Shown here one piece after another: positions 50,958 through 51,394 of a stretch of 64,000 nt of DNA. How positions within the stretch are numbered: position 1 is the stretch's first letter; the number at the start of each line of letters is the position of its first letter. The position numbers were made by a program, and so were the translations under genes. The notes below the pieces were generated by a model. The model did not search any database and was not told the origin of the DNA. It saw nothing but the letters and a program-made list of their open reading frames with translations. Source of the stretch: Bacteroidota bacterium (GTDB taxonomy: Bacteria > Bacteroidota > Bacteroidia > Flavobacteriales > Weeksellaceae); the NCBI GenBank assembly GCA_018266955.1, contig JAFDZI010000022.1, positions 62,001 through 126,000 of the forward strand, written 5' to 3'.

Positions 50958-50960
50958 TTC

Positions 50961-51008
50961 TTTTAAGCTTTAGGCATTAAGCTATAAGCAATATGCTTTT
51001 CTTAATGC
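50961..51008 (-). repeat. heptad array on the groL side of the four-helix-bundle gene
   Basis: Read on the minus strand: GCATTAA, a 12-base spacer, GCTTATA, GCTTAAT, GCCTAAA, GCTTAAA. The stop codon of the inserted gene (51004-51002) lies inside the first heptad. It is inverted relative to the array at 51360-51394, with which it can pair. Confidence 0.8.
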
Positions 51009-51358
51009 AGATTTATTTTTTGTTTTAATTTATATATTTTGCTTTTGATGTGATTTATTTTCTCAAAAAGCTGAACCGAATCAGTTTCATTAATTAAATT
51101 CAAATCCTGACATAGCATCAACAAATATTCTGTTTCGCAGGCCGAACCTAATGCTATATTGAGAAAATGATTAAACTCTTTATCTGAAGCTCTTCCACAT
51201 CCTTCACTAATATTGGTTGGAATTGATGTACAAGCTCTACGCAACTGAGAAGTGATAGTAAATTGCTCTTCTTTCGGAAAAAGTTTAGAAATAGTATAAA
51301 TCTCCAAAACCAATTGGTGACTTAATTGCCATACTTCGTATTTTCTAAAGTCTCTCAT
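51002..51358 (-). CDS. four-helix-bundle protein of the S23/IVP family
   Basis: A 118-residue all-helical protein of the family first found in intervening sequences of 23S rRNA and related to Avd of diversity-generating retroelements. Marks: Y-E-V-W-Q-L-S-H-Q-L-V near the N-terminus, Q-L-R-R-A-C-T-S-I-P-T-N-I-S-E-G-C-G-R, and A-L-G-S-A-C-E-T-E-Y-L. The family forms basic pentamers thought to bind nucleic acids; a cellular role is not established. It lies between groS and groL, bracketed by inverted heptad arrays. Confidence 0.88.
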   Translation of the reverse strand: MRDFRKYEVWQLSHQLVLEIYTISKLFPKEEQFTITSQLRRACTSIPTNISEGCGRASDKEFNHFLNIALGSACETEYLLMLCQDLNLINETDSVQLFEKINHIKSKIYKLKQKINLH

Positions 51359-51359
51359 T

Positions 51360-51394
51360 GCTTAAAGCTTACGGCTTAACGCATAATGTGTTAT
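51360..51394 (+). repeat. heptad array on the groS side of the four-helix-bundle gene
   Basis: Plus-strand reading: GCTTAAA, GCTTACG, GCTTAAC, GCATAAT, GTGTTAT, four to five heptads directly before the start codon of the inserted gene; the last one runs into the groS stop. GCTTAAA and GCTTAC recur in the hairpin between rplW and rplB. Confidence 0.8.

Follow-up and report, generated by a model that had tools for sequence, protein, structure and literature searches.

The insert between groS and groL

The window, by which we mean the whole stretch of 64,000 nucleotides that was analysed, holds in its groS-groL gap an ORF on the minus strand (51002-51358) that starts with ATG and encodes 118 aa. 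In a profile search the product matched PF05635 (23S_rRNA_IVP) with an E value of 4e-39 and 133.5 bits, against a curated cut-off of 33.8, and TIGR02436 (four helix bundle protein) with an E value of 6e-38. The gene and its surroundings are as follows.

51391-51669, minus strand: groS (Cpn10), the upstream host gene, intact (sequence and profile match)
51359-51392, minus strand: upstream array of about 4-5 TTAAGCn heptads, touching the stop codon of groS at one end and the start codon of S23 at the other
51002-51358, minus strand: S23/IVP four-helix-bundle gene, 118 aa (PF05635, TIGR02436 and fold model)
50961-51000, minus strand: downstream array of about five GCTTAAn heptads, complementary to the upstream array and ending just short of the groL start
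49329-50957, minus strand: groL (Cpn60), the downstream host gene, intact (sequence and profile match)

The two intergenic gaps of 32 and 44 nt are almost entirely occupied by the arrays, which contain an inverted pair (50963-50992 and 51357-51386) of 30 nt with 80% complementarity. Double heptads of the GCTTAAn type with at most three mismatches occur 19 times in the window, whereas 100 shuffles gave 6.2 on average and never more than 13; with at most one mismatch they occur at three places genome-wide (59 contigs), two of which are inside the window. These results bear out the initial annotation where it placed the gene in the S23/IVP family, flanked by inverted GCTTAAn arrays and inserted with both host genes intact. 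The element sits in a protein operon and not inside a 23S or 16S rRNA gene.

Complementary arrays around S23 genes

The groS-groL insert is one case of a wider rule for S23 genes. The genome sample consisted of the genome of the window (G000) and 58 relatives, and PF05635 was matched in 40 of these 59 genomes (191 matches with the own genome included, which has five copies). The 115 genes analysed are part of these matches, comprising the best match per genome where its locus was given and some of the matches listed; of 129 HMM matches, 116 were left once identical coding sequences had been taken out, and one more was dropped for a flank shorter than 130 nt, which gives the 115. For each gene the 120 nt upstream were aligned to the complement of the 120 nt downstream, with a cut at a score of 16 or more. 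The mean score of own flanks is 19.4, with 82 of the 115 genes at or above the cut and 33 below it, whereas mismatched flanks taken from different elements average 10.5 (5.7% of 1380 at 16 or more) and control-gene flanks 10.8 (6.0% of 300). When the comparison is restricted to genes with co-directional neighbours and both gaps of 30-150 nt, the flanks are complementary in 50/62 S23 genes versus 2/30 controls, and a joint period of 6-8 is found in 46/62 versus 6/30.

A joint best period of 7 was found for 75 of the 115 elements, of 8 for 29 and of 6 for five; where both arrays are clear (80 elements), the two arms have an identical period in 72. The arrays are about 35 nt long with mostly 4-6 copies of the unit, and the upstream array begins between -10 and +15 nt from the stop codon of the preceding gene in 52 of 68 cases. 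The medians are 5.0 and 4.9 copies per array. Since copy numbers range from 2 to 17 and are uncorrelated between the upstream and downstream arrays (rho 0.10), a fixed number of five is not required; control arrays also peak at 4-6 copies, with a long tail in addition, and a strict rule of five units per array was dropped.

The repeat unit varies between elements yet is common to both arms, even inside one subfamily. The own arm pair matches better in 88 of 106 comparisons within subfamilies, and in 42 versus 16 of 59 among same-site orthologues. For pairs at different sites with a protein similarity of at least 0.5 (n = 191), arm similarity is 15.7 against a permuted maximum of 13.4 (0/2000), a cut that was chosen after all different-site pairs without any cut had given a null result (arm versus protein similarity, rho 0.03, reached by 200 of 999 permutations); four cuts from 0.45 to 0.6 each gave 0/2000. 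Below a protein similarity of about 0.45-0.5 the link of unit to subfamily is not visible. At different sites, 106 of 120 pairs of similar proteins have the same period, versus 1459 of 3266 pairs of dissimilar proteins; when each of 42 locations was represented by a single element, the link was kept in 20 of 20 draws (0/500 each). Judged by eye, six-base units belong to one subfamily with five elements at three sites, mostly eight-base units to another with four elements at four junctions, and the GC-type heptads of the groES-groEL subfamily recur at two other sites. Exceptions are subfamilies 15 and 26, each with two units, and L013 of subfamily 16 with a deviant unit. With the repeat tied to the S23 subfamily even at sites that are unrelated, gene and arrays make up a single entity, and the data show that they travel and evolve together.

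The rule extends beyond the first sample. A GTDB scan with one conserved peptide pattern yielded at least 514 confirmed places, the best 80 of which were taken as a sample and not as a census, with L176 excluded for a short flank. Among these best 80 of 514 places, complementary flanks were found in 30/52 further Bacteroidota loci versus 7/104 controls, and in 14/27 loci of other phyla, several of which come from metagenome bins with a possibly mistaken phylum label, versus 1/59 controls; the latter loci include Chloroflexota, Acidobacteriota, Clostridia and Proteobacteria, and their strong joint arrays (n = 19) have a period of 7 in 18 cases and of 8 in one.

The arrays also have a strand polarity. 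Counting one array per location, G exceeds C in 43 upstream arrays and the reverse is true in three, while C exceeds G in 37 downstream arrays and the reverse is true in four; arrays at control genes are unpolarised (20:23 upstream, 28:20 downstream). An in-phase AG occurs in 27/49 upstream arrays and an in-phase CT in 3/49. Among the best 80 of 514 places upstream polarity is less marked, at 26:9, in the second Bacteroidota set and weak, at 13:9, in other phyla, and in the upstream array of the window at groS-groL the C content is about equal to the G content. The polarity argues against a plain symmetric terminal repeat of DNA and for the recognition of one strand. As for the gene itself, S23 between co-directional genes is in sense orientation in 106 cases of the first set and antisense in three, with 5 of 114 loci in other settings; the second sets, restricted to the 45 and 24 loci flanked on either side by a called gene, gave 40:0 (five others) and 16:1 (seven others), or 162:4 summed over the sets. 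Ordinary genes between co-directional neighbours are likewise in the same direction in 401 cases and opposite in 31, so the sense bias of S23 contrasts with a random insert and not with normal operon genes.

Own flanks form duplexes of -26.1 kcal/mol compared with -14.5 kcal/mol for mismatched flanks, and the two 70-nt flanks of the window element give -29.0 kcal/mol. These energies, the sense placement (162:4) and a layout that resembles the intervening sequences (IVS) of 23S rRNA are consistent with an IVS-like RNA element, in which the arrays would pair in the mRNA, RNase III would cut the stem and the S23 part would be removed, with the groES and groEL pieces still usable. Excerpts of the description of the Coxiella burnetii IVS point the same way, with heptamers in front of the S23 ORF, inverted ends and RNase III ends within the stem (PMC4990558). 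We nevertheless regard this reading as possible but rather doubtful. Mismatches of the G.U and A.C kind on the sense strand number 107 versus 127 and 68 versus 70, without an excess of wobble pairs, and among 87 array-bearing elements the sense duplex is stronger than the antisense duplex in 31 and weaker in 55. The absence of a G.U excess and of a sense-strand advantage argues against selection for the RNA stem as such, which was rejected on these two tests, and leaves the mRNA folding and cutting proposed in the initial annotation unsupported. In the minimum-energy fold of the transcript, judged by eye, the window element as a whole is closed by a short outer helix alone, and its downstream array also folds into a hairpin of its own.

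Turnover at operon junctions and arrays without a gene

A comparison of groES-groEL junctions in relatives, which the initial annotation had proposed, covered 30 loci (groS was found in 57/59 genomes), and junctions with S23, with a solo array and with neither all occur. S23 is present at nine of the 30, one of which (G004) is a truncated remnant by its length; solo arrays, of the GTAC or GC type by eye, are present in G001, G002, G028, G012 and G031, and several junctions are short and plain. A tenth groES-groEL S23 gene, in G052, lies outside the 30 junctions. In G013 and G020 (L042 and L059) an inverted CCCCCTTTCCCCC-type repeat bounds an intergenic region of 154-157 nt that has no heptads.

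The distances between S23 genes at this junction do not follow those of the host genes (rho -0.31, Mantel p 0.91, eight genomes). The S23 of the own genome is nearest to that of G052, a member of another family (0.29), followed by G033 (0.31), and its distance to the other five same-family genomes is 0.45-0.48. Six locations had enough pairs to correlate S23 identity with neighbour identity; the coefficient ranges from -0.38 to 0.19 at five of them and is 0.60 at the sixth (six pairs). Different S23 subfamilies occur at one and the same junction. Strict vertical descent at groES-groEL, which the initial annotation had named as the outcome that would count against its reading, finds no support in view of this discordance between S23 and host distances.

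Sequence comparison of G026 with G034 gives 97-100% identity over the element and its near flanks and 78-88% at the groES end and in the middle of groEL, and identity climbs again elsewhere in both host genes, a mosaic that suggests recent exchange. The S23 gene is under purifying selection: 42 same-site pairs (identity above 60%, alignments of 95 residues or more) gave a usable dS in all but 16 cases, many of the values being saturated, and dN/dS is 0.05-0.15 in 25 of the 26 computable pairs and 0.35 in one with few changes. Among the matches listed, at least 10 have an internal stop.

Other sites were found in more than one state. At the L001 site G012 has neither gene nor arrays, and about 22 nt separate the aligned blocks that are about 461 nt apart at L001; at this one clean empty site no target-site duplication was seen by eye, and no transposition intermediate was seen at the sites compared. 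At the L003 site, where G000 has S23, an inverted octad array without a gene is present in G012 and no clear array in G010, and G001 and G002 have GGTTGAT-type heptads with an adjoining ORF for a Y1 (IS200/RAYT-type) transposase (G001:C432:499-840, L275; G002:C18:28272-28613, L271), an arrangement that resembles an insertion into, or beside, a solo array. Presence, absence and discordance together show that favoured junctions gain copies, lose them and exchange one for another. Mobility, as proposed in the initial annotation, is therefore supported as a turnover at DNA sites, the operon junctions, and not as an event at the RNA level.

The Y1 genes raise the question whether the element is moved as DNA in trans, by an HUH Y1 transposase that would recognise the hairpin arms. 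Y1 and S23 counts over the 59 genomes are correlated (rho 0.73, or 0.53 after genome size), Y1 without S23 occurs in only one genome of 59, and in G001 and G002 the Y1 ORF adjoins heptads. This explanation is nonetheless unlikely, since 11 genomes have S23 and no Y1 match and the correlation may merely mirror the general mobile load. A route by reverse transcription was rejected: RVT_1 is matched in 13/59 genomes, with no match in the own genome (a draft, 97% complete) or in the three genomes richest in S23 matches (G013, G006 and G028). Movement seems possible without an encoded reverse transcriptase.

Arrays also occur without an S23 gene, and the window contains three inverted ones.

24537-24600, no strand assigned: solo inverted GCTTAAn-type array in the rplB-rplW gap, the genes being read from the sequence (heptad match)
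22156-22254, no strand assigned: solo inverted array in which about 30 nt separate 4.9 copies of TTAGATG from 5.1 copies of TTCTAAT (partner scores 13 and 14)
19609-19676, no strand assigned: solo inverted AATAAAG/CTTTATT array with the unit of L001, an S23 element of the same genome (partner score 19)

The second of these seems to lie in the same ribosomal operon as the first, as read from the sequence. The AATAAAG unit of L001 recurs at about a dozen further places in the own genome, and one such inverted hairpin sits between genes that we take to resemble atpD and atpC. A one-directional AATAAAG-type run of more than a dozen heptads (G000:C34:34245-34376, L256) exceeds most arrays beside S23 genes, and a composite solo array (G000:C24:59396, L267) consists of GCTTAAn heptads followed by CTAAnnT-type heptads in a single gap. 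The window further contains four perfect AAACTA/ACTAAA hexamer arrays of 3-6.5 copies on the same strand (32049-32087, 39827-39856, 41052-41081 and 43109-43126), which span about 11 kb and have inverted-partner scores of at most 15 for the first and at most 11 for the other three, and at 30008-30431 a 213-bp unit duplicated in tandem with 95% matches.

Solo copies of two units were counted as pattern matches, and for the GTAC unit a single place may be matched on each of the two strands. With S23 subfamilies sampled and not exhaustively assigned, AATAAAG matches in six cognate-S23 genomes number 40, 1, 9, 1, 4 and 0 and are present in 12/53 others (p 4e-4), and GTACnnT matches number 6, 2, 37, 44, 1 and 0 and are present in 20/53 others (p 0.006); the arms of own elements were subtracted for G000 and G010 (AATAAAG) and for G006 (GTACnnT), and the counts of G028 and G035 may include own arms. 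Solo arrays are also found in genomes in which no cognate S23 was found, such as G049, which has GTACnnT arrays and no S23 match.

That solo arrays are common could mean that heptad hairpins are general intergenic repeats made by slippage, in some of which S23 genes merely sit. The dozen or so AATAAAG places in the own genome fit this idea, as do the 24.3% of 300 control genes with a 6-8-base array in some flank and the 6/30 matched controls with a joint period of 6-8. It is quite improbable all the same, as unit and period go with the S23 subfamily at different sites, arrays are polarised at S23 genes and not at control genes, matched controls reach only 2/30 for complementarity and 6/30 for period (46/62 for S23), and solo copies of the two units are commoner in cognate-S23 genomes (p 4e-4 and 0.006). 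Least probable is that S23 is an ordinary, vertically inherited operon regulator, for example of chaperonin translation, with the arrays as putative binding sites: purifying selection (dN/dS about 0.1) and a sense orientation like that of ordinary operon genes (401:31) would suit it, but S23 and host distances are discordant, the S23 of G052 from another family is closer (0.29) than those of same-family genomes (0.31-0.48), and different subfamilies as well as empty and solo states occur at a junction.

Proposed working and relation to known systems

An AlphaFold2 model of the window S23 protein has four helices and a pLDDT of 96.8. Foldseek matched it to 2gsc and 2rld and, more distantly, to Avd of a Bordetella phage retroelement (4dwl), and each of the three entries has five chains. 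We lean, by a little, towards the view that the S23 loci are small elements of one class, which occurs in many bacterial phyla and whose members consist of an S23 gene, a G-bearing upstream array and a complementary downstream array, are placed in sense within an operon and would read themselves. In a typical copy about five units of 6-8 bases lie just upstream of the S23 gene and the complementary array just downstream. A ring of S23 subunits would bind its own array with one unit per subunit, and the mirror array could serve as an alternative partner of the same strand. Protein and mirror array would then compete for the upstream array, which would fit both the polarity and the missing G.U excess, and the module might in this way set its own expression level and lower its burden on the host operon. 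We infer that the element is a module of a selfish or autoregulatory kind, with an S23 protein that would form a ring and read its own array. More tentatively, S23/IVP proteins across bacteria may be subfamily-specific readers of 6-8-base arrays, with one ring subunit per unit; every element would then be self-contained, with reader gene, array and counter-array, solo arrays of the same unit might be its non-autonomous copies or targets in trans, and the rRNA IVS would be a special case in 23S rRNA.

The rule that joins S23 subfamily to short repeat, on both arms, with a preferred strand and in many phyla, makes the function of S23/IVP proteins directly testable as binding, and makes S23 proteins a candidate reader for the heptamer arrays that are scattered through bacterial genomes. 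It also describes a class of small elements that dwell in operons and leave both neighbour genes intact.

The Avd protein of diversity-generating retroelements, which is a ring in solution, has a fold in common with the S23 protein studied here and five chains (4dwl). Against the Avd equivalog NF033474 the window S23 scored an E value of 0.003 and 17.8 bits, far short of the cut-off of 80, so the sequence similarity is weak, and in contrast to a diversity-generating retroelement RVT_1 has no match in the own genome (97% complete) or in G013, G006 and G028. TRAP is a ring protein that reads a row of AG-bearing tandem triplets; the likeness would lie in the proposed logic, a ring reading tandem units, and fold and unit length differ. 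MITEs and REP-RAYT elements are small intergenic inverted-repeat elements with gene-less copies, whereas the arms described here consist of short-period arrays, have a strand polarity and a unit that depends on the S23 lineage, and enclose no transposase.

Intergenic arrays of the TAACTGA heptamer have been described in some Bacteroidetes, also in ribosomal protein operons (MacGregor, 2015, PMC4679880). According to the main text of that report these are direct repeats of one unit without a link to S23, and S23, 23S or helix bundle do not occur in it. In Flavobacterium columnare a four helix bundle gene after the guanylate kinase gene was filed under phage elements in an excerpt of the report (PMC5524665), and the main text of a study of rRNA insertions in CPR bacteria contains neither S23 nor tandem nor inverted (PMC11270868). 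In the literature reached, which left most subscription papers and preprints outside, inverted subfamily-specific arrays around S23 genes of protein operons were not found, and heptamers joined with an S23 gene were found in excerpts of PMC4990558 only.

The closest known system is that of the 23S rRNA IVS. The likeness claimed in the initial annotation, an S23 gene between paired flanks, stands and becomes closer with the Coxiella burnetii IVS, in which three tandem heptamers and a degenerate one, fewer in some strains, lie directly before the S23 ORF (Warrier, 2016, PMC4990558). Excerpts of the same report give a 28-bp terminal stem with excision by RNase III. The complementary ends, the strain-variable number of heptamers, the patchy distribution and the proposed horizontal acquisition of the IVS are features to which we liken those of the elements described here. 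Unlike the IVS, these elements lie in protein operons and have clear arrays on both sides with units of 6-8 bases that are specific to the subfamily. Whereas the Coxiella S23 ORF was judged to be decaying and probably not expressed, the S23 gene here is under purifying selection, and excision is known for the IVS only. The function and origin of rRNA IVS have been called unclear (excerpts of PMC4990558), and this puzzle extends to the S23/IVP proteins, whose role is likewise at stake. The pattern of an array in front of S23 and its mirror array behind was previously known only in part, from rRNA insertions. Since the window element lies outside rRNA, we do not file it as an IVS; it may belong to a wider class from which the IVS come.
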